DNA of 49,671 nucleotides from Candidatus Bathyarchaeota archaeon (GTDB lineage Archaea; Thermoproteota; Bathyarchaeia; Bathyarchaeales; Bathycorpusculaceae): contig PLNS01000026.1 of assembly GCA_003141855.1 (NCBI GenBank), positions 61,754-111,424 of the forward strand, read 5' to 3'. Every line of letters begins with the position of its first letter. Positions within the stretch are counted from its first letter, which is position 1. The notes below the pieces were generated by a model. That model made no database searches. It saw nothing but the letters and a program-made list of their open reading frames with translations, and was not told where the DNA came from. Of the stretch, positions 11,804-48,566 are shown piece by piece. A program made the translations under genes and the position numbers.

Positions 11804-11876
11804 GCTGGGGTGGCCGAACGGTTCAGGCGGTAGCCTGCAGAGCTGCTCTATATGGGTTCAACTCCCATCCCCAGCT
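11804..11876 (+). tRNA. tRNA-Cys (GCA)
   Basis: A complete cloverleaf of 73 nt without an intron: acceptor GCTGGGG/CCCCAGC, D-stem GCC/GGC, anticodon stem GTAGC/GCTGC with loop CTGCAGA (anticodon GCA), and T-arm ATGGG-TTCAACT-CCCAT. The discriminator U73 is an identity element of tRNA-Cys. CCA is not encoded. The last 23 nt plus the four bases after the gene (11854-11880) are repeated at 33699-33725, so this gene is the attachment site of the integrated element and is left intact by it. Confidence 0.96.
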
Positions 11877-11880
11877 CTTT
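11854..11880 (+). repeat. Left attachment repeat (attL) in tRNA-Cys
   Basis: 27 nt, identical to 33699-33725. It covers the T-arm, the acceptor 3' strand, the discriminator and four bases (CTTT) after the tRNA. Confidence 0.92.
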
Positions 11881-11905: not shown

Positions 11906-13054
11906 TTATTTTCGTTTTCTGAACAGTTTTGCATCATCAATTGCACAGATGAATTCAAAGCCGTTTTCTATTAGCTGACTGGCTTCTTGAACAGTTTTTG
12001 CTACCTTGCACACAAATTCATCGTCTTCTGGAAAGTCGATTAGTTGGGTATAGACAAGGGTGTTTTTGATGCTTTTGTGACCCAGAAGTCTCATGACGTA
12101 AAGGATGTCTTTGGTTCGGTGATATTCCATTGTGGCTTTCCAATGTCTAAATGTGTGGAATGTTATTTGCAGTAGTCTAGGATTTCCGAGCTTTATTGCC
12201 GCTCTCTTTCGTTGACGTGTGAAGCATGTTCTGTATCCAGAAAGGGGGTAGCTCCCGAATATGTGATCACTTTTTCTAGGCAGCGCCAATAGCATTGATA
12301 GTAGCTTTGAAGATATTTTGGATATCCGAGGATTGCTTCCCTTTTCAGGGGTTAGCCGCAGTGTCCTATTTTCAGTGTCGAGTTCTATCCATTTTAACGA
12401 CCAGGCTTCTCCGACTCTTGCCGCCGTTTCCTTGAGCGTTTGAAGTAAAGCAGCGCCTTTTGGTGAGCAACTTGCTATTAATGCGTCGATTTCGTCTTCT
12501 TTTGGAATGAAGGGAATCTTTCTGATCCTGCAATAAATCGGAGGGTTCCAAGTGCCGTCTGTCATCGTTAAGAAAGTAGTGTATGCGTTTACGGCGTTTT
12601 CTTTTCTGCCTTCAGACCATGATTGTTTCGCTATGACATCTTTGATTGTTTCAGGGTCGTACAGATTTGCGCCTCTCTTCACCATTATTTTGAGAAGCTT
12701 TGTTCTGCTGAGAATAGTGCCGTCTTTGTAGCCTTGTTTTTTCATCCACCAACTGAATTCAACGATTTTGCCCTTTGTATCTTGCTGTGTGATTTCACCC
12801 GCAACAGTCTTTATTTCTGTTTGCGGTTCCAAATTTTTCGCCTCTTGTGCGCAGATTTGGTTACCTACGAATATGCCGCCAGCTCTTAAAAAACGCCTCT
12901 CAGTAGAAACTTGTAGCGGTCGAGGCTCAGTGAACCTATGGGCGCACTCTCGGCAGATGTAAGTTTGAACCTTCTCGCCCGTCCGAAGCTTGCGCAGACC
13001 ATTTTTGAAAAGTCTTGGGGAATTGCAGTTTGGGCAGGCGAGAGAGGTCATCAA
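11906..13054 (-). CDS. Tyrosine integrase with N-terminal zinc ribbon
   Basis: This enzyme would integrate and excise the element at tRNA-Cys. An N-terminal zinc ribbon (Cys7, Cys10, Cys34, Cys37; CPNCNSPRLFKNGLRK) is followed by a core-binding region (about 95-180) and a catalytic domain. The catalytic set is visible: Arg in TAARVGEAWSLKW (about 212), His300-x2-Arg303 (HTFRH), His326 (LGHKS) and Tyr335 (TLVYTQ). All key residues are present and the frame is intact, so it should be active. Its 3' end points to attL, 25 bp away. Unlike SSV-type integrases the gene is not split by integration. A stand-alone relative of its zinc ribbon lies near attR. Confidence 0.93.
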   Translation of the reverse strand: MMTSLACPNCNSPRLFKNGLRKLRTGEKVQTYICRECAHRFTEPRPLQVSTERRFLRAGGIFVGNQICAQEAKNLEPQTEIKTVAGEITQQDTKGKIVEFSWWMKKQGYKDGTILSRTKLLKIMVKRGANLYDPETIKDVIAKQSWSEGRKENAVNAYTTFLTMTDGTWNPPIYCRIRKIPFIPKEDEIDALIASCSPKGAALLQTLKETAARVGEAWSLKWIELDTENRTLRLTPEKGSNPRISKISSKLLSMLLALPRKSDHIFGSYPLSGYRTCFTRQRKRAAIKLGNPRLLQITFHTFRHWKATMEYHRTKDILYVMRLLGHKSIKNTLVYTQLIDFPEDDEFVCKVAKTVQEASQLIENGFEFICAIDDAKLFRKRK

Positions 13055-16018: not shown

Positions 16019-16240
16019 TCACGGGCGGGGAGCAAACTTGGGCTTAGTCTCATACCAGAACGTGTAAAACATCTTCTCGTCAGGCGTGAACTGGTTCTCC
16101 CAGCCCGTGCTAAAGTTAAGGAATCCGGGCTTGCTCTTGTGCACAGCCATGACTTTCAGGCGCTCGTCATGCGACAGCTTGGTTACGTCGACATCTACAT
16201 GGTACTGGTTCTTCTTCTTTTTGAACAGGTCATCGCTCAT
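16019..16240 (-). CDS. Small hypothetical protein, last gene of the zinc-ribbon operon (73 aa)
   Basis: A charged protein starting MSDDLFKKKKNQYHVDVDVT. It has no Cys cluster or membrane segment, and I recognise no family. The ATG at 16240 is preferred to an in-frame TTG at 16249 because AGGTTGAT sits just upstream. It follows the 47-aa gene by 12 nt and ends the six-gene minus-strand operon. Confidence 0.55.
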   Translation of the reverse strand: MSDDLFKKKKNQYHVDVDVTKLSHDERLKVMAVHKSKPGFLNFSTGWENQFTPDEKMFYTFWYETKPKFAPRP

Positions 16241-16252
16241 ACCGATCAACCT

Positions 16253-16396
16253 TTACTCTTCGGGTTTGGGCAAGACGAACAGCGGAAAGACATCCAAGTT
16301 TGATTCTTCGGCTGCCTTAATGCCCAAAAACTTTAGGACTTTTTTCTGACCCTCAGGCGTAAGGTCACTCAAAAATACCTCAAGCTCGTCGTCCAT
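16253..16396 (-). CDS. Small acidic protein (47 aa) in the zinc-ribbon operon
   Basis: An acidic protein, MDDELEVFLSDLTPEGQKKV and onward, ending in a Pro/Glu tail. The ATG follows AGGTGAT at 5 nt, a good ribosome-binding site, and lies 17 nt before the stop of the preceding gene. The N-terminal part looks like a short two-helix unit (LTPEGQKKVLKFLGI). The function is unknown. Confidence 0.6.
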   Translation of the reverse strand: MDDELEVFLSDLTPEGQKKVLKFLGIKAAEESNLDVFPLFVLPKPEE

Positions 16397-16541
16397 GACT
16401 TATCACCTTGATTTCCGTTTGAGTTTTCACGGAAAAGACGCATTTGCACTCTTGGCATTTGAATTGGACAATCCGCAGGTTGCCTGAGTCTGTGAACCCG
16501 AGAAACTTGGAGCTCATCGCATGACATTCGGGGCAGATCAT
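16380..16541 (-). CDS. Zinc-ribbon protein C of the triplet (53 aa)
   Basis: Short zinc ribbon: CPEC near the N-terminus (Cys3, Cys6) and FKCQECKCVF (Cys29, Cys32, Cys34). It shares this pattern with the two genes before it. The start ATG overlaps the previous stop as ATGA. The C-terminus is basic (HGRRA). Probably a DNA- or protein-binding regulator of the element, inferred from the fold only. Confidence 0.65.
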   Translation of the reverse strand: MICPECHAMSSKFLGFTDSGNLRIVQFKCQECKCVFSVKTQTEIKVISHGRRA

Positions 16542-16753
16542 GTCTGCGCCTCCATGAACATCCTCTCTATCCGATCATGCTTGGTGACCTCGAGGTGCCA
16601 GTGTGTGACCATGAATTCGCGGAACTCGCACTCGCATTCTTTGCAACTGTACCTTGTAACGAGGATGGCGCAGTTGTCGCCAAGCCGCTCGCTCTTTTCT
16701 ATTCCCAGAGTCTTTAGGCGCGTCAAGCCGCAGTCAGGACAGCTTAGAATCAT
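16538..16753 (-). CDS. Zinc-ribbon protein B of the triplet (71 aa)
   Basis: Starts MILSCPDCGLTRLK with Cys5 and Cys8 and continues to YSCKECECEFREF, the same spacing as its neighbours. The ATG at 16753 overlaps the previous stop by 4 nt (ATGA), which fixes the start; the frame upstream of it is a shadow of the previous gene. Conserved His/Trp residues follow the second knuckle (VTHWHLEVTKHDR). A paralogue of proteins A and C. Confidence 0.65.
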   Translation of the reverse strand: MILSCPDCGLTRLKTLGIEKSERLGDNCAILVTRYSCKECECEFREFMVTHWHLEVTKHDRIERMFMEAQT

Positions 16754-16944
16754 GGCTCGAACTCCCGCCCATGCGCGGTGACTTCGGTCTCTACTCCCCA
16801 CCGCTCGATCTGCTGGAACTCACAGCCGCAGCTATGGCACCGATATTTCGTTATGGTCACCGTATGCTCGTCGTCTTGGCGGTCATCGTTCATCGTCAGA
16901 AGGCTTTCACTGTTAGCGCTGGAGCATTCGGGGCAACTGGTCAT
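16750..16944 (-). CDS. Zinc-ribbon protein A of the triplet (64 aa)
   Basis: Starts MTSCPECSSAN (Cys4, Cys7), has a polar linker, then YRCHSCGCEFQQIE. The second knuckle has three Cys in a C-x2-C-x-C pattern, shared by all three paralogues. The start overlaps the stop of the SWIM gene as ATGA. A longer upstream frame exists but lies inside the SWIM gene. Confidence 0.65.
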   Translation of the reverse strand: MTSCPECSSANSESLLTMNDDRQDDEHTVTITKYRCHSCGCEFQQIERWGVETEVTAHGREFEP

Positions 16945-17216
16945 AGCGGCGCCTCCCAGAGCCCGAGCAGATAGAGCCAGTTCGGTTCCTGCGAAGTTTG
17001 TTGCAAGACCGCGTGTATGTGTTTGCATTCGATTTGGCGGAATTTGAAGTCGGCACAGTCACAAGTCCATTTGCCCCTAAACAATGTGACGCTGTATCCG
17101 CCTCTGCCGGACTGACTTTTGACCCAGAACGTTTCGGGGTTGATTTGCTCGATGTCTTGGGGCTGAATCTGTTCGCCCCGTTGTTTACGGGATAAGACTT
17201 GTGTTGCCATATGCAT
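16941..17216 (-). CDS. SWIM-type zinc-finger protein (91 aa), first gene of the small operon
   Basis: The C-terminal half has WTCDCADFKFRQIECKHIHA: Cys52, Cys54, Cys64, His66, the CxCx(n)CxH pattern of SWIM zinc fingers. The preceding FWVKSQSGRGGYSVTLFRGK forms the usual beta-strands. SWIM domains bind DNA or protein and occur in Rad51-paralogue partners, transposases and SWI2/SNF2 helicases; here the domain stands alone. The TATA element at 17243-17250 lies about 30 bp before the ATG, so the mRNA is nearly leaderless. The downstream genes all overlap, so this promoter should serve the whole operon. Confidence 0.75.
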   Translation of the reverse strand: MHMATQVLSRKQRGEQIQPQDIEQINPETFWVKSQSGRGGYSVTLFRGKWTCDCADFKFRQIECKHIHAVLQQTSQEPNWLYLLGLWEAPL

Positions 17217-17242
17217 CTACCTACCGAATGATGCGCGAGACC

Positions 17243-17250
17243 ATATATAA
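17243..17250. promoter_or_regulatory. Shared TATA element for two divergent transcripts
   Basis: ATATATAA within CCATATATAAAC is close to symmetrical. It sits about 30 bp before the SWIM gene start (17216, minus) and about 40 bp before the AbrB-like gene start (17289, plus). No other TATA-like sequence exists in this 72-bp gap, so one box probably serves both directions, as seen in compact viral or plasmid genomes. Confidence 0.5.
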
Positions 17251-17288
17251 ACTCCTCTGCCAACCAATAGGTAGAAATAAATAAGCCA

Positions 17289-17474
17289 ATGTACATAGAA
17301 AAGGGCATGAGCCTCAAATCAAAAACATCGATAGCCCGACCAAAATCAAAGTCGCTGAGAGCCACAATCCCCGAAGGAATCTGCGTTTTTCTCGGAATCA
17401 ATGCGGGAGATACGCTCGAATGGCAAATGACCGACACGCCCGACGGACGCGCAGCCACGGTTCGAAAGATCTAA
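17289..17474 (+). CDS. AbrB/SpoVT-like swapped-hairpin DNA-binding protein (61 aa)
   Basis: The sequence SKSLRATIPEGICVFLGINA followed by GDTLEWQM has the AbrB/MazE swapped-hairpin pattern (basic strand, Pro-Glu, hydrophobic turn, GDxLEW). Such proteins are transition-state regulators or antitoxins. No toxin gene follows it directly. A shorter start at ATG 17307 (MSLKSKT...) is also possible. It is divergent from the zinc-ribbon operon and shares its TATA element, so it may control that operon (inference). Confidence 0.7.
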   Translation: MYIEKGMSLKSKTSIARPKSKSLRATIPEGICVFLGINAGDTLEWQMTDTPDGRAATVRKI

Positions 17475-17553
17475 AATCCGTTCACTGAAGTTCCACTTAG
17501 GCAGAAATGTTATTCCCAGACCAGGGCTATGCTCGATCGCTTGGGCACGTCAA

Positions 17554-17573
17554 AAAATTTCCCGGAAAAATTT
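17554..17573 (+). repeat. 20-bp direct repeat, copy 1
   Basis: AAAATTTCCCGGAAAAATTT, identical to 18359-18378. Similarity continues downstream in a looser way (a run of A, then CAATG and TGATT). Both copies lie in gaps between small accessory genes of the element. Confidence 0.7.
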
Positions 17574-17601
17574 GGGCAAAACTCGATGCAATGTACAGTG
17601 A

Positions 17602-18233: not shown

Positions 18234-18358
18234 GTTTTAAGTATAAGAAATTTGCGACATCCCCACCAAACTCGGGAATTGCTGTTTAAGGAGCGCTTGC
18301 ATAACTCAGGTTTGTAATCTTTCAAAATCCTTCTGATTCCTGTATGTCGGCGCGTCTG

Positions 18359-18378
18359 AAAATTTCCCGGAAAAATTT
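18359..18378 (+). repeat. 20-bp direct repeat, copy 2
   Basis: Exact copy of 17554-17573, in the 270-bp gap between the two minus-strand genes at 17809 and 18501. I see no gene here. Confidence 0.7.
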
Positions 18379-18500
18379 CGGTAAAAGCTTACAATGATTA
18401 CATTGACATGGCGGTTGGACGTAGCTACATATTCGTTAGAGATTGTCTAAAACGACAATTTTTCAACTTTACAATCTCCTATTTACCGTTTAGAAGGGCA

Positions 18501-19860: not shown

Positions 19861-22047
19861 TTATAGAGTCAATAGTTTCCATGAACTCAAATTATTCGCA
19901 TCATAAAAGTATACATCTTCGTCATTATACCTCCAAGTGCCATTAATGTTAATTACAATTCCGCCCCAAATTCTCTTGCCTTTTGCGTTCTGTTCTCTAA
20001 TAAACCTCTGAAGCCCTTCAGATCGAGGGGCTGCATCGCTTGTTTCTGCTGTTCTCCCGGCTTTGGGGTCAAATATTCCAATACTTCCATTTAGGAATTG
20101 AACTATGAAATCAGGATAAAAAGCTCCTTTTGCATCGCTCCTTGGAACGGCAAAATATTTAATCTCACTTTCTCCGTTTTTGAACCACCATTTAACGTTT
20201 GGAGATTCTTGTAATGCTTCAACAAAGTCTTTTTCGGGTTCACTTTGTTTTCGCGTGTAGAAGGGTTTCATGATTGACTTGGTCCTGTCTCCTTTTGCAT
20301 ATTTCGCATTATAGCTAATGAGTATCGGAACGTCCCAATTTGCAGTGATAATTTTCTCTCTCGCTTCGCTAAGAGGTTCAATAACTTTTCGTTTGTATCT
20401 TTCTTTTGCAATATTAATTGCCGCCAAAAAATGCGGTGTATTTTCTTTACCAAGGACAATTCTTTGCGTTTGTGAATCAAACTTTTTCAGCTGAAATTTC
20501 TCAGTGAAAAATTGGTAAATGGCAGTTTTCATTCGATCACTCGAATCAACGGGAGCAAAAGGATAGCATACGGCTGTTATGAACTTATCAAATCTCTGTT
20601 GTAATTCGGCCGAATTGAGTTGCACCTCAATGCTTCCTTTGTGCTCTATTTCCCCAAATTGATCAACATTAGTAATTCTTCCTTCAGCAATAATCGGATT
20701 AACAATTCTTTGCGGAGTAGGATTTATTTTATCTTTTAGATTTATTTCGTTTGTAACCTCAAGAAAAATTTTGGCAAATTCGCCAGAGAGTCTTGTTCGC
20801 TCTCTTTGCCTTTTAAAGTAAATTGATGGAATTTTTACTTCGTTGAAAAGAGATGCATCTCTTACTGCTTCGAATATTGTAATATAATCTTTGGCATATT
20901 CCTCAGTGATATCAATATTCGGTAAATTAGTAAAAATAAATCCTTTATTCAGTTCAGGTTCATTATAGTATTTTAATTCAGGCATTCTCATAATTCTACC
21001 GATTGTTTGAATAGTAAATACAAAATTTGTCGATTCCCTGAAGATAACAAGAATTGATGCTCGGGGGCAGTCCCACCCCAGTGCAATAGCCTGTTTGAAA
21101 ACAAGTACTTCGACGTCATTATCATTTTTTTCCACATTTACTAAAGTATCAGTTTTTTCCTCAGAAAGCCAAATTGCCATTTTTCCGCTTTCTTCTGTTA
21201 TTCCTTTGCTTTTCAATATTTTAATTACATCATCTTTTTTGTTAATCAAGTTGCCTCTTTGATCGGGCAATTGTATAAGTAAAAGAGGATTAATGTCTGA
21301 GCCGTTTTTCTCATATAATTTTTTCAGTTCGTTCCGCTTCTTTATAGCTTGCTCAATAACTATTTCATCTGAGCTTTTAGGCCCAACTTTTAGCGATAAA
21401 AACTCAGGATTTACAGCAATTTCGGACTTAATCATTTCTTCACTCTTTACATCTGATAGAAACACTTTTTCAATTTCTGATAAATTTTCCTTTAGATTTG
21501 GGGTTGCCGAAACTTCGAGTGTTACTTTCGGTGAAATTGCTAAAATCAGTTCTCTTGATTTTTCAGAGCTTGCGGTATGGTGGCTTTCATCAATAATTAG
21601 GATAATCTCCCTGCCTTCATCCTTAGTGTTCTGAACAACATTGTTTAGATTATTATCTTGCTCGTTTTCTCTGACAAAAATGTTGATGTCCTTTTTATTT
21701 ATACTATGCCAATTAATGAACAGAATTTCATTTTGATGAATTTTTTTATCCCGTAGCTCATTAAAATAAGAGCATTCCACGGTCTGTTCATCTTGATAGT
21801 ATTTTTCTAACTTTTCCTTACTTTGCTCATGAAGCATTCTTACAGATATCCAAATAAATGAGAATTTTTTATCGTCTTCTCTGTTACTCACTAAGTCTTT
21901 CAATAATTGCGAGACCATCAGCGTTTTGCCGCTTCCAGTAGGGGCTTGAAAAACTACTATTCCTGCTTCTGGGCCTCTAATTACATTTTCAATCTTCACT
22001 TTAAGACTGTCGATAGCTCGTTTTTGATAGTTTCGTAAATCAATCAT
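19861..22047 (-). CDS. Type III restriction enzyme, Res subunit (DEAD/DEAH helicase-nuclease)
   Basis: Res translocates on DNA and cleaves unmodified sites together with Mod. Superfamily 2 helicase motifs: RNYQKRAI (Q-like), APTGSGKT (35-42, Walker A), DESHH (about 153-157), SATPNL (motif III) and QTIGRIMRMPE (motif VI). Near the C-terminus, FYPDFIVQF...GIFDPKAGRT gives a PD-(D/E)XK nuclease site. The length, 728 aa, is slightly short for the family but complete in motifs. Its start overlaps the mod stop by 4 nt, so the two are cotranslated. Confidence 0.92.
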   Translation of the reverse strand: MIDLRNYQKRAIDSLKVKIENVIRGPEAGIVVFQAPTGSGKTLMVSQLLKDLVSNREDDKKFSFIWISVRMLHEQSKEKLEKYYQDEQTVECSYFNELRDKKIHQNEILFINWHSINKKDINIFVRENEQDNNLNNVVQNTKDEGREIILIIDESHHTASSEKSRELILAISPKVTLEVSATPNLKENLSEIEKVFLSDVKSEEMIKSEIAVNPEFLSLKVGPKSSDEIVIEQAIKKRNELKKLYEKNGSDINPLLLIQLPDQRGNLINKKDDVIKILKSKGITEESGKMAIWLSEEKTDTLVNVEKNDNDVEVLVFKQAIALGWDCPRASILVIFRESTNFVFTIQTIGRIMRMPELKYYNEPELNKGFIFTNLPNIDITEEYAKDYITIFEAVRDASLFNEVKIPSIYFKRQRERTRLSGEFAKIFLEVTNEINLKDKINPTPQRIVNPIIAEGRITNVDQFGEIEHKGSIEVQLNSAELQQRFDKFITAVCYPFAPVDSSDRMKTAIYQFFTEKFQLKKFDSQTQRIVLGKENTPHFLAAINIAKERYKRKVIEPLSEAREKIITANWDVPILISYNAKYAKGDRTKSIMKPFYTRKQSEPEKDFVEALQESPNVKWWFKNGESEIKYFAVPRSDAKGAFYPDFIVQFLNGSIGIFDPKAGRTAETSDAAPRSEGLQRFIREQNAKGKRIWGGIVININGTWRYNDEDVYFYDANNLSSWKLLTL

Positions 22048-23705
22048 TTGAAAATCCTTTTGTAGATATTAAGTATGACAGCAGGAATTGCTTTCAATTC
22101 AACCAAATCTTTGACTTCTTCAAACTCTTCTTCTCGAGCGCTGTCATCAAGCGAAAAGACGTAGACAACGAATTTTTTCTGAGTTTTCTTTAATTCATCT
22201 ATAAATGGACTGATCCCGTCATCGTCATAAATTATTCCAATGTATTTATCTTCACTATTTTTAAAAATTTTGAAATATTCAGTGCTTTCTACATTATCAA
22301 AACAAGCCTCTTTTACACAAAGCATCTCTGTCGAATTATCGACAAGTTTTCTTTTATTCATATCAGTCGCTTCTGCGTCCACAAATGCGGTCTTGAAATA
22401 TCTTAAATTTCCGCCAAGGCCCTCAATTTTGTTTCCTTTTTGGTCTTTGTATCCATTAATTACGTTTGCAACTCGGGGATAACAAATCTCTGAAGCGATA
22501 TTACTCTCATTATTAGTGCAAAGAATAAACTTCCTTTTGCCGCCATCCTTGTTTAATTCTAGTACCGCATGACCTGTAGTTCCAGAACCCGCGAAGAAAT
22601 CAAGCACGGTCGCGTTCGGCCGATTTCCGATAATGAGTTCAAGACAGCGTTTGACGTTGTATAAAGACTTTGGAAAGGGGAAATCCAGACCTGTTATTGT
22701 TTTTACTAAAGTTGCTCCATTTCGTCCAGCTTCAAATTCGCTATCAGTCCAAACCGTTTTGGGAGTGCTGTCTTCTTGAGTAAGAAAAATATCAAATTCT
22801 CCTTTAACCTCTACAGCTACCATTCTCTCAAGCTCGTTATTTACGGTATCATGGCCAAAATTCCATCGTCTTTCTACTCCATCTTGATCTACCGGCCAAA
22901 CCTCAATCTCACCGTTTTCTTTTATAACGTTCTTTGATTTGGGATGGAAATCTGGCTCAGGAGTCTCACCAATTCTGGTTATTTGTCCGTCTTTAACATA
23001 AACAGGATAGAACATGGTAGGTCGCGCGGCCCTTGTTGAGTTATGCCCCCATCTTCTAAATTTTCGTGGTTTGTCGTTCATTTTTTTTGTACGAGCAATT
23101 ACATGAGCACCATTTGGAATTATGAAAAGTGCGTATTCATGAGTTCTGGCAAAATTGTTCGTTATATTACCTCTTGGATTATGTACTACCGTTACACTGG
23201 TTGTGGCATAACCCAGCATAAGTTCATCGATAAGCACTCTAAGCCTGTGTACTTCGTTGTCGTCGATTGCGATTATTATGACTCCATCTTTTTTTAGAAG
23301 CCTTTTTGATAGAACAAGACGCTTTTCTATCAATGAAAGCCATTTACTATGTCGCCATGCATCATTGTTATCGACATAATTATTATTATATTTCCAATCC
23401 CTAGCCCCTGTGTTGTATGGTGGGTCAATATAGATTACATCAATTGCCCCTTTGTGAGTATAATTAAGAACTGAGAGAGCATGATAGTTATCACCCTCAA
23501 TGAAAATATTGACAGGTTTTTCGGGATCCGTAGAAATTGCTTTTTCTTTATCTTCAATGATAACAGGCAGTTTTGTTTTGCATAACTCGGCAACCTCTTC
23601 AGGCTTATCCTCCCAAACCATACCGAATTTTTTTCTTTTCTTTAGCTTTGTAATTTCGCGAATCAATTCTTCCTTTGACCATTCGAAATAATCTTCTTTC
23701 ACCAT
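22044..23705 (-). CDS. Type III DNA methyltransferase, Mod subunit
   Basis: Mod recognises the target and methylates adenine at N6 using S-adenosylmethionine. The catalytic DPPYNTG is at 94-100, and the cofactor motif LDFFAGSGTTGHAVLEL lies after the target-recognition region (about 365), giving the beta-class order of type III enzymes. At 553 aa it looks complete. The C-terminal part is Res-interacting by analogy. The operon runs mod-res and is AT-richer than the backbone, consistent with transfer. Confidence 0.92.
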   Translation of the reverse strand: MVKEDYFEWSKEELIREITKLKKRKKFGMVWEDKPEEVAELCKTKLPVIIEDKEKAISTDPEKPVNIFIEGDNYHALSVLNYTHKGAIDVIYIDPPYNTGARDWKYNNNYVDNNDAWRHSKWLSLIEKRLVLSKRLLKKDGVIIIAIDDNEVHRLRVLIDELMLGYATTSVTVVHNPRGNITNNFARTHEYALFIIPNGAHVIARTKKMNDKPRKFRRWGHNSTRAARPTMFYPVYVKDGQITRIGETPEPDFHPKSKNVIKENGEIEVWPVDQDGVERRWNFGHDTVNNELERMVAVEVKGEFDIFLTQEDSTPKTVWTDSEFEAGRNGATLVKTITGLDFPFPKSLYNVKRCLELIIGNRPNATVLDFFAGSGTTGHAVLELNKDGGKRKFILCTNNESNIASEICYPRVANVINGYKDQKGNKIEGLGGNLRYFKTAFVDAEATDMNKRKLVDNSTEMLCVKEACFDNVESTEYFKIFKNSEDKYIGIIYDDDGISPFIDELKKTQKKFVVYVFSLDDSAREEEFEEVKDLVELKAIPAVILNIYKRIFK

Positions 23706-27324: not shown

Positions 27325-29259
27325 TTATTTTTGGGGAACGATAGATGGGCAATTTGCTTTTTTGATCGCTTCGATGATATCTTGTATTGTTTTAGGAACC
27401 ACTTGAACTGCTGGAGACCCAGCACTTATTTTTTGTTTTATCTTCTTCGCGACAAAGCGATTCTTTACTGGTTTTCCTGAGGGTCCTACTGTAGCTGTGC
27501 ATTCTGTAATTAGCGCTTCATAATCAGGAATTTCACTTCTTAGCAATTTCTCTATATCATCTTCAAGCACTGCATATTTGGATGTCACTTTTTTGGCAAT
27601 CTGGTCTTTAGTGATTTTATCGCCGAGCATAGCCATCAGGTCAATTGTTGCCTTTCGCGCATTTTCTGCATCCTGCTTTTTGCTATTTTTATCCCCATCA
27701 AACATTGCATATGTAGGGATGCCAAAACCGCCAAAAATCCTAAGCAGCCGGTCGATATTGCTTTTGCCATCAGCGTGAACCACTGAGACGTTACACTGAT
27801 TCAAATCATACCCCACACAATCGGCGTAGATAGGCAAGGCATATTGCTCCGAAGGCCCTTCAACCACCACGACTTTTTGTGCAAAAAAACCTTCACTAAC
27901 TATAGGGTTAAAGGCATTGGAATAAAGCTCTCTCATCCCTTCAGCGGTTCCTGTTTTCTCTGGATACCTCTTTTTGAAATCTACAAGCATGTCTTCCATT
28001 GAAAGCTGGCTAGGTTGACTTTTGTAGTAATCGCCTGTTTTTTCACGACGCATTATGCATATTTCGTTAAAATGCTCGATATCTACAAAGAGGCTTGAGT
28101 GGGTACAATAGATAACTTGGTCCTGGTTTTCTGCTATGTCTCGAATCACTGACATGAGCGTACGCTGAGATTGCGGGTGCATGTAGAGTTCGGGCTCTTC
28201 AAAGGCAAAGATGGTTGTTCTTTGCTTTGCCCTGTCGGCAGCTTTTATCTGGTGGGTTAGTTCAGCATACGCTCTCAAGATTGTGAAAATCATTGTCCTT
28301 TGCATGCCATGCCCTTTCGTTTCAATTGAGGTTCGAGTCCCGTCATCAACATAGATTTTTGCAGCTCCCATTACCTCTTCGATTTTTGGCAGGGGTACCT
28401 CAATCTCGACATCGCACTGCATTACTTCTTGCATTAATTCATTCATTCTCTTTTCGAACGCATCAATTTGAGTAAAGCGATTCGTTTTGCCGCTTCTGTT
28501 AAACCGCTTCTCAAGTTCCTTTATTTTATCGTCTAGTTCTTTTCTATTCTCTTGGGGGATTGCATCAAAAAAAGATTTTAGAAGTTGGCCAAAGGGATTT
28601 GTTTTTAATATTTTTGTCTCTTGGGTCACATCTCTGACTGCCGGAATAAGGATGAATTCTGGCAAAGCGCCTTTTAAAACTCCAGCATATCCCTTGGGAT
28701 TCTGTGCAGCTTTTTCAATCCATTTAATCTCTTTTTTATGTTCTTGAGCGAACTCTTGAGCGGCGGCTTTCCATTTGCCTACCTGCGGCTCTGATTTTGA
28801 CGTGCCAAATTTTGTGGAGAAATCATTCTCTCCGACTTTTAATGATGCTCTGTTTGGCCACCATTCACTAATTTTTGTGCCGCTAATTACATCTTCTTGC
28901 AACCAATCCGGTTCGGGGACACTCTTGACTGCAACGGTTGTTATCTCGTAGTTGGTACTGTCGATTTGGCGCCCGACCACCAGTTTATCGCCATCCATCC
29001 AAGGACCGAATTGCTCCTTCTCCCATGGACTCAATTGCTTGAAAGTCAACAAAATTTCAATTGGCTCACCCTGATGTTTATAGTGAACGGTTTCAGCATC
29101 AACCAACTCTTTTGAAGCCTCGAAGAATAACTCCAATGCTTTGAGTACACTTGATTTTCCGCTATTATTGCCCCCAACCAATGCAAGAATGTTGTTGGGA
29201 GTAATAGTTACGTCTTCAAGCGAGCGATAATTCTTGATGTGGATTTTTGTAATTTTCAC
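27325..29259 (-). CDS. OLD-family ATP-dependent endonuclease (ABC-type ATPase plus Toprim)
   Basis: N-terminal ABC-like ATPase: Walker A GGNNSGKS (29-36), a signature-like region around ETKGHGMQRTMIF and Walker B FAFEEPELYMHP. The C-terminal Toprim domain starts at VVVVEGPSEQYALPIYA and has DGKSNIDR and MFDGDKN acidic sites. OLD proteins cut DNA and act against phages; GajA of Gabija belongs here. Next to it I see no UvrD/GajB-type helicase, so this is a class-1-like solitary OLD, or its partner has been lost. The start has only a weak ribosome-binding site. Confidence 0.9.
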   Translation of the reverse strand: MKITKIHIKNYRSLEDVTITPNNILALVGGNNSGKSSVLKALELFFEASKELVDAETVHYKHQGEPIEILLTFKQLSPWEKEQFGPWMDGDKLVVGRQIDSTNYEITTVAVKSVPEPDWLQEDVISGTKISEWWPNRASLKVGENDFSTKFGTSKSEPQVGKWKAAAQEFAQEHKKEIKWIEKAAQNPKGYAGVLKGALPEFILIPAVRDVTQETKILKTNPFGQLLKSFFDAIPQENRKELDDKIKELEKRFNRSGKTNRFTQIDAFEKRMNELMQEVMQCDVEIEVPLPKIEEVMGAAKIYVDDGTRTSIETKGHGMQRTMIFTILRAYAELTHQIKAADRAKQRTTIFAFEEPELYMHPQSQRTLMSVIRDIAENQDQVIYCTHSSLFVDIEHFNEICIMRREKTGDYYKSQPSQLSMEDMLVDFKKRYPEKTGTAEGMRELYSNAFNPIVSEGFFAQKVVVVEGPSEQYALPIYADCVGYDLNQCNVSVVHADGKSNIDRLLRIFGGFGIPTYAMFDGDKNSKKQDAENARKATIDLMAMLGDKITKDQIAKKVTSKYAVLEDDIEKLLRSEIPDYEALITECTATVGPSGKPVKNRFVAKKIKQKISAGSPAVQVVPKTIQDIIEAIKKANCPSIVPQK

Positions 29260-30664: not shown

Positions 30665-30883
30665 GTGAAACCTCGGCATTCTCAGGCGGCAATCATTTGT
30701 CACTATCTGATAGATAACCTCGCAGACGAGTTTGGGTTCAAGCCATGGCACATTGTACCGATTATTCTTTGTTTCTTTATTTTTTTTTATAATCTATTAT
30801 TCTTACAATTAGGGGTAAATAGATCGCTTGAGTATCGAAAACCTAAGCCTTGGCTGCTGAAAGATAAAATGCTGAACACTTAA
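30665..30883 (+). CDS. Doubtful small membrane ORF (72 aa)
   Basis: A GTG-started frame with one hydrophobic segment (HIVPIILCFFIFFYNLLF). It lacks a convincing ribosome-binding site and overlaps the end of the convergent CARF gene by 4 nt. It may be real but is unsupported. Confidence 0.25.
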   Translation: MKPRHSQAAIICHYLIDNLADEFGFKPWHIVPIILCFFIFFYNLLFLQLGVNRSLEYRKPKPWLLKDKMLNT

Positions 30884-31671
30884 TCAGTTGTGCCGATTAT
30901 GTTAGCCATATATTCCCCAGATTCAGTCAGGCTAATTTTATTATATCGACCAAATTTTTCTCTGACGATATAGCCGTCCTTTTCAAGCTTATTCAAGACT
31001 GCCTTATTCAAATTCACCCTGTTTTTTTGCTGTAATCTTCGCTTGCCTTCTTTTGAATTGCAATTTTTTTCATCAACGAATATCTCTATTCCTTTTGCAA
31101 CCAGTATATCCAGAATTTCTTCAGTATTCAAGGGTTTTCCCTTGTTCCAAATACTAGATAAAACTATTTTTCCAGCTTCATCAGGGAGCTTTATTTGAAA
31201 GTTCTCCAAGATCATTCCTTCGGGTTTATTGCAAATGCTGAGTCCATGCAGTTGTCTATCTTGGTCATTTCTTGGATAACTACTTGCAATCGCATAATAC
31301 ACCTTTGCATTGTGAGCCATCGCGGCTAAAGTAGCCCCAACCGAAGACAATTTTCCTCCAGCAGACATGTTTACATAGACAACATTTCCTTTCGCTTTTT
31401 CCTCAAGAATAAGGCTTGATACGCTATTCATGAGCTCCTTTATGTCGAAGCAGTCAACTTCTTTTATGATTACTTCGATTTTTTTCTCTTTGAGCTTCCT
31501 CGTTACTTCCTCAAGGCAGTATATTTGTTCTTTTTTCTCGTTTGGATAATCGGGATCCTCCGGTGTTACAAGAAGGTATACTCTATTTGCAGGCATTCTT
31601 TCAAGCAAAACTACGGCTCTGTCAATTTCAAATCCAAGCGGAATTATGTGAACATGCTGTTCAAAGTTCAA
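30880..31671 (-). CDS. CARF-HTH regulator (HFX_2341/Csa3-like)
   Basis: The N-terminal domain (about 1-150) has the Rossmann-like CARF pattern: HIIPLGFEIDRAV, RVYLLVTPED and VVYVNMSAGGKLSSVGATLA. The C-terminal half (about 160-263) is a winged helix (LNKAVLNKLEKDGYIVREKFGRYNKISLTE). Such proteins bind cyclic oligoadenylates in type III CRISPR systems and control transcription; the HFX_2341/DUF6293 group is similar but often CRISPR-free. No repeat array or cas gene is in the window. The start is TTG with GGAG 8 nt upstream. Its promoter has two 11-bp direct repeats. Confidence 0.8.
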   Translation of the reverse strand: MNFEQHVHIIPLGFEIDRAVVLLERMPANRVYLLVTPEDPDYPNEKKEQIYCLEEVTRKLKEKKIEVIIKEVDCFDIKELMNSVSSLILEEKAKGNVVYVNMSAGGKLSSVGATLAAMAHNAKVYYAIASSYPRNDQDRQLHGLSICNKPEGMILENFQIKLPDEAGKIVLSSIWNKGKPLNTEEILDILVAKGIEIFVDEKNCNSKEGKRRLQQKNRVNLNKAVLNKLEKDGYIVREKFGRYNKISLTESGEYMANIIGTTD

Positions 31672-33698: not shown

Positions 33699-33725
33699 GG
33701 GTTCAACTCCCATCCCCAGCTCTTT
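33699..33725 (+). repeat. Right attachment repeat (attR)
   Basis: 27 nt identical to 11854-11880. The bases before it do not continue the tRNA (the T-stem 5' strand is changed to CGGGG), as expected at an att junction. Backbone sequence starts right after it with a T-rich stretch. Confidence 0.9.
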
Positions 33726-46884: not shown

Positions 46885-47757
46885 TTGAACAGAGAAAAAC
46901 CAAATATAAAATGTCCAAAGTGCGATTACCAATGGCACACTAGATCAAATCTTCAGATGGTAAGTTGTCCTTCATGTAATCAAAAGATTCGAAATTCTGT
47001 ACGAGCACAAATCATGAAGTTTATTCATCAGAAACGAGGCATCGTAGGCTTAGAAACTGCGATAATACTGATAGCTTTCGTAATTATCGCCGCTGCCTTC
47101 AGCTTCATGGTTGTTAACCAAGGGCTCTTCGCTACAGAACGAGGCAAGACAGTAATCCAGCAAGGCCTACAGCAAGCAAGCACACCGCTGATAATAGATG
47201 GAACAATTCTTCTTCGAACTACATCATCAGGGACAGCAGTGGACTACGCGATAATTCCGATAAAGGCCTTCGGATCAAATTTCGTTAACATGGGAAGAAA
47301 CCAAACAAGCGTAATATTGAAGGTCGGCGAGAAAGCTTGGGCAAACGCATACTTGGGCACTCTGCACGTCGGCTATCCGAATGGGACAATTTATAACGCA
47401 ACAAACGTCGTATACGATCCGACAGGGAAGGAATTTGATGACTTCACCGGCTTTCAACTGGCAAATCAAACTATGGATGGAACCCCGTGCAGCCTCTACG
47501 TAAACGAAACTTACAGCACTGGGTACACAAAGGGTCTGACAACCGGAGTAAGCTTAGCTATCTCAAATAGCAACGGAGACGAAGCACTAAACTCAGGAGA
47601 GGAAGGTTACCTCTTAGTGGCGCTCGGCACCGGGGATGAAGCATATGCTAGAGCAACAATAAGCCTTGAACTAAGAGTAGAGAACAGCGCAACAATTTCG
47701 ATAGTATTCACGATACCTGCATCGATGCCCGCAAACAGCTACGTTTCAGTATCTTAA
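46885..47757 (+). CDS. arlB: Archaellin (ArlB) with an N-terminal zinc-ribbon extension (290 aa)
   Basis: From residue 44 on it is an archaellin prepilin: MKFIHQKRG then IVGLETAIILIAFVIIAAAF, with the class III signal cut after Gly52 and the hydrophobic assembly helix, then a glycosylatable beta domain. The preceding 43 residues form a zinc ribbon (Cys10, Cys13, Cys28, Cys31; KCPKC...SCPSC), not known to me in archaellins. The TTG at 46885 has GGTGA 6 nt upstream, while the ATG at 47014 has no such site, so the longer form is favoured. Prepilin peptidase would then release a 52-residue leader with the zinc ribbon in the cytoplasm. Confidence 0.85.
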   Translation: MNREKPNIKCPKCDYQWHTRSNLQMVSCPSCNQKIRNSVRAQIMKFIHQKRGIVGLETAIILIAFVIIAAAFSFMVVNQGLFATERGKTVIQQGLQQASTPLIIDGTILLRTTSSGTAVDYAIIPIKAFGSNFVNMGRNQTSVILKVGEKAWANAYLGTLHVGYPNGTIYNATNVVYDPTGKEFDDFTGFQLANQTMDGTPCSLYVNETYSTGYTKGLTTGVSLAISNSNGDEALNSGEEGYLLVALGTGDEAYARATISLELRVENSATISIVFTIPASMPANSYVSVS

Positions 47758-47930: not shown

Positions 47931-48566
47931 ATGAACTGGAAAAAAAACATATGCAACTTCGCAAAACAAAAGCGAGCTATAGTCGGTTTAGAAGCAGCAA
48001 TAATTCTCATAGCCTTCGTCATCATTGCAGCTGTTTTCAGCTTCATGGTCGTTAACCAAGGACTCTTCGCCACAGAGCAGGGCAAAACCGTAATCCAGCA
48101 AGGCATACAGCAAGCAAGTACACCGCTATCAGTTGACGGAACCTCATTCGTGAAAACTTCAGAAGACGGCAAAAACGTAATAGGTTTTCTCGTTCCATTG
48201 AAGACCTTTGGATCTAAATATGTTTCAATGATTAACGAGACAACAGTAGTAACCTTAAAAATAGGCTCAAACGCATGGTCAAATATATACAATGGAACTC
48301 AAAATGCAACCCTCGGCGAAACCTTCGACAATATGCTAGGCAACGTGACAGCAAACCAGGGTTCTCTGTTCATTCAGAACAGCAACGGTGACCAAGCCTT
48401 AGATTCAAGTGAAAAAGGCTATCTCGTCATATCCTTAAGCCCAGAAAATGCAGCACTAGTACGAGCACAGGTTACAATTGAAGTCAGGTTAGAGAAGACA
48501 GCGCCGCTCTCGTTAGTATTCACTGTCCCAGAATCCATGCCAAGAGATGCATGGGTGAATGTGTAA
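47931..48566 (+). CDS. arlB: Archaellin (ArlB), second copy (211 aa)
   Basis: A standard archaellin: short basic leader ending KQKRA, cleavage before IVGLEAAIILIAFVIIAAVF, and a C-terminal beta domain with several N-glycosylation sequons. The first 50 mature residues nearly match archaellin 1, and the C-terminal parts are related but shorter here, so the two are tandem duplicates. Different filament compositions or major/minor roles are likely. No prepilin peptidase gene is in the window. Confidence 0.92.
   Translation: MNWKKNICNFAKQKRAIVGLEAAIILIAFVIIAAVFSFMVVNQGLFATEQGKTVIQQGIQQASTPLSVDGTSFVKTSEDGKNVIGFLVPLKTFGSKYVSMINETTVVTLKIGSNAWSNIYNGTQNATLGETFDNMLGNVTANQGSLFIQNSNGDQALDSSEKGYLVISLSPENAALVRAQVTIEVRLEKTAPLSLVFTVPESMPRDAWVNV

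Follow-up and report, generated by a model that had tools for sequence, protein, structure and literature searches.

On balance, we read an operon of six tiny genes in a Candidatus Bathyarchaeota archaeon as a captured transposon control cassette that has been rebuilt into an operon under AbrB repression, encoding small DNA-binding regulators of an integrated element. The operon lies in a stretch of 49,671 nucleotides (the window; contig PLNS01000026.1) of a 2.4 Mb genome. The AbrB gene, the control region and the head of the SWIM protein very probably have their origin in the regulatory end of an IS240/IS6-type transposase gene, judging from the sequence and arrangement they share with such genes.

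The original prediction described tiny overlapping genes packed into 1.2 kb, and all six of its minus-strand frames were confirmed, namely a SWIM protein, three micro zinc ribbons (ZnR-A, ZnR-B and ZnR-C) and proteins of 47 and 73 residues (p47 and p73), divergent from the AbrB gene. The ATGA overlaps joining SWIM to ZnR-A, ZnR-A to ZnR-B and ZnR-B to ZnR-C were found as described (Table 1); the start of p47 overlaps ZnR-C by 17 nt and a gap of 12 nt separates p47 from p73. The longest open reading frame for SWIM begins at 17216, and the ATG conserved in its relative at locus L021 (see below) is the one at 17210. The block is also GC-richer than its surroundings, as had been noted (0.518 versus 0.427 and 0.446 in the flanking kilobases). 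The six-gene string is real and largely under selection. Its layout was absent elsewhere in the genomes searched and is known from this window alone; automatic annotation easily misses ribbon genes this tiny.

Table 1 Positions of the operon, its control region and the ends and integrase of the carrying element (window coordinates)
Feature	Position	Strand	Remarks
att repeat, left copy, 3' end of tRNA-Cys (11804-11877)	11854..11880	+	exact 27-bp repeat
Zinc-ribbon tyrosine integrase of the element	11906..13054	-	PF00589, E=4.7e-16; 56% identical to the L021 integrase
p73, 73-aa protein	16019..16240	-	open frame
p47, 47-aa acidic protein	16253..16396	-	open frame
ZnR-C, 53 aa, paralogous micro zinc ribbon	16380..16541	-	ATGA overlap with ZnR-B
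ZnR-B, 71 aa, paralogous micro zinc ribbon	16538..16753	-	ATGA overlap with ZnR-A
ZnR-A, 64 aa, CPxCG-type micro zinc ribbon	16750..16944	-	ATGA overlap with SWIM
SWIM protein, 89 aa	16941..17210	-	91 aa if ATG at 17216; PF04434 above cut-off
Predicted AbrB operator, inverted boxes TCTACCTA (17216-17223) and TAGGTAGA (17268-17275)	17216..17275		boxes flank the promoter; conserved in L021 and L202
TATA-like box TTTATATA of the operon	17244..17251	-	~34 nt upstream of the SWIM ATG; conserved in L021
AbrB/MazE-fold DNA-binding protein, 55 aa	17307..17474	+	divergent to the operon; start better placed at 17307
att repeat, right copy	33699..33725	+	exact 27-bp repeat

The operon is carried by a 21.8-kb element that is integrated in a tRNA-Cys gene and bounded by 27-bp att repeats; an AAA+ protein is also encoded on it. 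Defense-type cargo occupies 19861-23705, 27325-29259 and 30880-31671 and comprises a type III restriction-modification pair, an OLD/GajA-like ATPase-TOPRIM protein and a CARF3 protein. Downstream of the AbrB gene, a 38-nt repeat (GGCACGTC..AAAATTTCCCGGAAAAATT) is present at 17544-17581 and 18349-18386, and it recurs near AbrB genes or fragments at L021, L067 and L190; its 19-nt core occurs twice in the window versus 0.03 copies expected. Possibly this repeat serves the element as an origin or as a site of recombination. Outside the element, a 176-nt repeat with 80% identity (47029-47204 and 47967-48142) lies in two neighboring secreted or pilin-like genes.

A close relative of the SWIM protein was found in 1 of 101 related genomes, that of Candidatus Bathyarchaeota isolate palsa_989 (G022; PLYI01000027.1, locus L021; 58% amino acid identity). 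A scan of GTDB contigs returned this same relative and no other, and a class-wide search of 257 genomes added no further stand-alone SWIM protein of this type; the cassette is sampled by two elements, the window and L021, together with decayed copies. At L021, the AbrB gene diverges from SWIM, a single ribbon, a p47 vestige, a gene for a PriCT replication protein and the integrase gene, in that order. ZnR-C is the orthologue of the single L021 ribbon (L021:4502-4654, 52% identity), and no orthologue of ZnR-A or ZnR-B was found outside the window. Because L021 keeps AbrB, SWIM, one ribbon and the p47 vestige, these components form the ancestral core; ZnR-A and ZnR-B are either gains in the window or losses in L021. 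The operon was absent from 40 neighborhoods of related integrases, and the module therefore lies outside the core of the integrase family.

The AbrB proteins of the window and L021 share 75% identity (75-80% across L021 and L067), and dN/dS between the two loci is 0.34 for SWIM, 0.32 for ZnR-C, 0.15 for AbrB and 0.14 for the integrase, values that point to purifying selection on SWIM, ZnR-C and AbrB. The 96-nt spacer is 80% identical between window and L021 versus only 64% for the SWIM nucleotides; the promoter is better conserved than the operon genes. The original prediction had staked itself on conservation of the small frames, which turns out to be uneven: SWIM and ZnR-C are kept, whereas p73 is represented elsewhere by one fragment and ZnR-A and ZnR-B by nothing outside the window.

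Two decayed copies were observed, one with a truncated integrase adjoining AbrB (L067:8186-8683) and one an AbrB fragment with a tRNA-Cys on the same stretch of contig (L069:9376-9588). A second, partial AbrB C-terminus is present at L021:3505-3597 and L067:9042-9152, both in G022, and is closer to the end of the window AbrB than to that of its own locus, which suggests insertion or recombination after AbrB at these two loci. We considered whether the window block might itself be a decaying transposon remnant with fortuitous small frames, a reading favored by these decayed copies and by the truncation of p47 in L021. It is very unlikely, as it conflicts with the dN/dS values of SWIM, ZnR-C and AbrB, with the invariant zinc ligands of all four ribbons and with a new C-terminus that is the same in both SWIM proteins, and it is largely refuted for AbrB, SWIM and ZnR-C.

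The SWIM domain passes the Pfam gathering cut-off (PF04434, 24.2 versus 19.6 bits), and the CxC...CxH ligands are present as CDC...CKH. Beyond the Pfam core, the protein aligns over ~70 residues with the N-termini of SWIM transposases (37-44% identity, RxxRGxxI segment included), and its C-terminus, LGLWEAP, is its own, new with respect to the transposases and shared by the window and L021 proteins. The DDE catalytic domain (PF13610), found in the relatives at L070 and L072, is missing from the 89-aa protein, as is the HTH part, and for this reason the SWIM protein cannot catalyze transposition. A structural model (pLDDT 82) had no neighbor in the PDB, and sequence searches of solved structures gave nothing useful for SWIM and only generic fingers for the ribbons. 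All other good SWIM matches are to the N-termini of proteins of ~375 aa that carry a DDE_Tnp_IS240 domain and whose genes, in Thermoproteota archaea, have the architecture SWIM-ribbon-HTH-DDE with a small DNA-binding gene transcribed away from them. A small divergent gene of DNA-binding type lies 12-130 nt upstream in about 20 of 22 distinct Bathyarchaeia SWIM transposases: canonical AbrB in six, a zinc ribbon in two and a ribbon-helix-helix protein (by eye) in most others.

The 55-aa divergent protein of the window scores 13.1 bits against PF04014 (E=0.098), below the gathering cut-off of 24.7, and an AbrB-like relative at L070 reaches 21.0. Its assignment to AbrB is made because it is homologous to AbrB-like relatives at L021, L067 and L202, and not on the Pfam score. 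The most telling of these is L202, from another family, where a full-length SWIM transposase has a divergent AbrB with 59% identity (32/54) to that of the window. The control region of L202 reads TCTACCTA...TTTATATA...GTAGGTAGAT..ATGGCAA, the order of the window at nearly the same distance to the start, with the boxes TCTACCTA/TAGGTAGAT in common and the TATA-like box at nearly the same spacing. It had been proposed that the operon shares one TATA box with the divergent AbrB gene; the TATA-like box of the operon stands, but the AbrB side of the gap has an A/T-rich AAATAAATAA of its own, and we therefore speak of one shared control region in place of one shared TATA box. The two-box operator pattern occurs once in the window and in 0 of 100 shuffles. 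Elsewhere in the window, TACCTA pairs at 25 sites show no excess over chance, and we therefore claim no wider regulon.

Across the 22 transposases, TACCTA/TAGGTA boxes were significant in all six AbrB-type spacers versus 0 of 16 others (Fisher 1.3e-5), a motif first noticed in four of those same six spacers and the window. For that reason it was retested separately on 224 genomes of the phylum, an independent set in which the boxes were significant in 4/4 canonical AbrB spacers and in 1/17 others (Fisher 8e-4), the exception being the spacer of a non-AbrB transposase (L206). A divergent AbrB-like subgroup (SIPKP type; L219, L225 and L230) is without boxes, and with this subgroup added to the AbrB class the validation loses significance (p=0.08). 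No convincing terminal inverted repeats were found, even around the full-length SWIM transposase relatives. Among the SWIM-IS240/IS6-type loci (L003-L015, L151, L152, L175-L187 and L202-L230), some spacers have repeats of their own.

We infer that the cassette moved from transposon to element, because the transposases are spread much wider. The original prediction missed that the control region, AbrB and SWIM trace to IS240/IS6-type transposase genes. Each piece, whether SWIM finger, AbrB, CPxCG micro-ribbon or IS240 transposase, is of a known kind; a cassette without its catalytic part that drives micro-ribbons on an integrative element is a combination that was not found in the literature searched or in family libraries.

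How might such an operon work? An integrative element would have captured the transposon control cassette, with micro zinc ribbons (one to three) and p47 in place of the HTH and DDE parts. Dimers of AbrB would occupy the TACCTA boxes on either side of the TATA box and keep the SWIM operon repressed; AbrB would probably also repress itself, so that both promoters would be shut. Once repression is lifted, SWIM and the ribbons would be made together by coupled translation and would act as small DNA-binding regulators, or as RNA-polymerase/DNA adaptors, setting how the element is expressed, its copy state or its excision; the ribbons, being in tandem, may be duplicated specificities, and p47 and p73 may be accessory. 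The proposal of small regulators of the element survives in this form on indirect grounds, which are the integrated element with its att repeats, the transposase-derived control region, ribbons of the class of the archaeal regulator Brz and the NrdR-like model of ZnR-C. As for the regulatory function itself, we put its chances at even or a shade better.

We also considered dominant-negative control of transposition, in which SWIM would keep the DNA specificity of the transposase, occupy transposon ends or the transposase promoter and so shield the element (or the host) from related SWIM transposons. SWIM is indeed a transposase head without a catalytic domain, related transposases exist in the host genus, and the transposons have an operator of this kind as well. 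However, no full SWIM transposase was detectable in the host genome with this query, which matched only this gene; the inverted-repeat search did not delimit transposon ends, and the ribbons, p47 and p73 are left unexplained. We consider this reading rather unlikely.

The three ribbons were predicted to be paralogous with shared CPxC and CxxCxC motifs, and both motifs proved invariant in all three, with five Cys in common; together with a C-terminal V..H.R, they are also invariant in the single L021 ribbon. Searches with ZnR-B recovered ZnR-A (E=1.2e-7) and, weakly, ZnR-C (0.024). The Cys pairs are CPEC/CHSCG in ZnR-A, CPDCG/CKEC in ZnR-B and CPEC/CQEC in ZnR-C. By sequence criteria, all three belong to the CPxCG-related small zinc-finger proteins, defined as shorter than 100 aa with two Cys/His pairs 7-40 residues apart and at least one CPxCG, CPxCx or CxxCG (PMC2253796). 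The model of ZnR-C (pLDDT 86.8) has as its best PDB matches the zinc ribbon of NrdR, a DNA-binding repressor (Foldseek probability 0.99-1.00 and TM 0.60-0.67, with weak E values of 0.05-0.25), and weakly resembles the A12 ribbon of RNA polymerase I. With regard to a possible origin of the window ribbons from the ribbon of the transposase itself, transposase and integrase ribbon profiles score them alike, though NCBIfam gave weak matches of ZnR-B and ZnR-C to transposase ribbons. An Ogr/Delta-like zinc finger (PF04606) was rejected, as ZnR-C scored 23.2 bits (E=6.7e-5) with a cut-off of 26.3 and ZnR-A and ZnR-B gave no match.

SWIM and the ribbons follow each other in the operon as the SWIM and ribbon parts do within the parent transposase. 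It is conceivable, at rather long odds, that the SWIM head and the separate ribbons assemble into one DNA-recognition complex that would steer the integrase or replication of the element, with ribbons swapped or duplicated for specificity.

p47 has solo relatives with 55-60% identity in two Bathyarchaeia genomes (two in G003 and one in G017), and at the same place in L021 a vestige, MADELEIFLSKT, runs for twelve codons and then stops. Further relatives with 43-58% identity occur in viral or mobile contigs. Because its relatives sit solo or in varied mobile elements, p47 appears to be a roaming small acidic protein. Such relatives (L195:1708-2234, L198:1285-3017 and L199:46-305) belong to gut mobile elements that carry serine recombinases and to a viral contig of 51 kb; in each, the preceding gene encodes a Cys-rich or zinc-ribbon protein and overlaps by 4 nt. 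On the viral contig, the neighbors on its two sides are a DNA ligase-like gene and a gene for a zinc-ribbon protein (Ku-like by eye). p73 is all but an orphan, matched elsewhere by one 29-residue fragment (G022:C21, E=2.1e-4).

Another hypothesis is that the small proteins assist the replication protein of the element, as a replication or maintenance accessory operon. The L021 operon runs straight into a gene for a PriCT-1 replication-type protein of 692 aa, after which comes the integrase, and the window operon lies on the same side as the AAA+ protein and the integrase. No PriCT gene adjoins the operon in the window, however, and its occurrence in 0 of 40 related-integrase neighborhoods argues that this replication type can do without it; we regard the hypothesis as unlikely.

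Among the anti-defense genes of mobile elements, it is common to find small overlapping genes with a divergent regulator. This arrangement, and the occurrence of p47 relatives in mobile elements, would speak for anti-defense or counter-regulatory proteins of the element, the second role that the original prediction had offered. That role found no backing, in that the seven small proteins drew no match from PADLOC models, PHROG and NCBIfam likewise gave no assignment, and the context offers no pointer beyond the defense genes of the element itself. Neither AbrB nor the integrase nor the operon had a relative among the viral contigs, and the transposase-derived control region favors regulation, so we hold an anti-defense role to be quite unlikely. 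Two SWIM matches in viral contigs were rejected as unrelated phage proteins. A plasmid search gave no SWIM match, and a phage search gave one weak match, to the archaeal virus ANMV-1. By these searches, the block is not part of any known virus module.

Given its probable transposase origin, the operon offers a traceable prokaryotic case in which another mobile element took over the whole control module of a transposon (repressor, operator, promoter and DNA-binding head) and dropped the catalytic part. It yields a concrete prediction, that AbrB of this family binds TACCTA boxes, and points to widespread archaeal SWIM transposases with interchangeable divergent regulators (AbrB, apparent ribbon-helix-helix and zinc ribbon).

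Several known systems resemble parts of the window. The archaeal IS6/IS240-type SWIM transposase genes (L202, L006 and L010) share the SWIM head, the divergent AbrB, the TACCTA/TAGGTA boxes, the TATA placement and the ~100-nt spacing, but the window gene ends after the SWIM domain, without HTH or DDE, and continues as a micro-ribbon operon. Two papers on the IS6 family mention zinc fingers in long clostridial members, and the word SWIM is absent from both (PMC6807381, PMC7986276). ANMV-1 also encodes a stand-alone SWIM protein, of 70 aa, in a run of small genes (AJP62019.1), although with 40% identity over 44 residues only and without ribbons or an adjoining AbrB. The late-gene activators Ogr/Delta of P2-type phages are similar in size to ZnR-C and match it weakly, but the second Cys pair of ZnR-C differs and no structural genes are nearby. 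Brz of Halobacterium salinarum is a small CPxCG zinc-finger protein and a proven archaeal regulator (PMC2253796), with Brb as its operon partner (PMC3184054). The window ribbons are likewise below 100 aa, their two Cys pairs, of which one is of CPxCG type, lie 7-40 residues from each other, and, as in brz-brb (PMC3184054), they share an operon with another small protein; unlike Brz, they are three tandem paralogues with extra invariant Cys (CxxCxC) and a transposase-derived partner and promoter. The plant transcription factors FAR1/FHY3 (PMC6000157) are likewise transposase-derived and carry a SWIM zinc finger, but they are eukaryotic, of Mutator-like origin and keep a transposase-like core, whereas the window keeps the SWIM head only.
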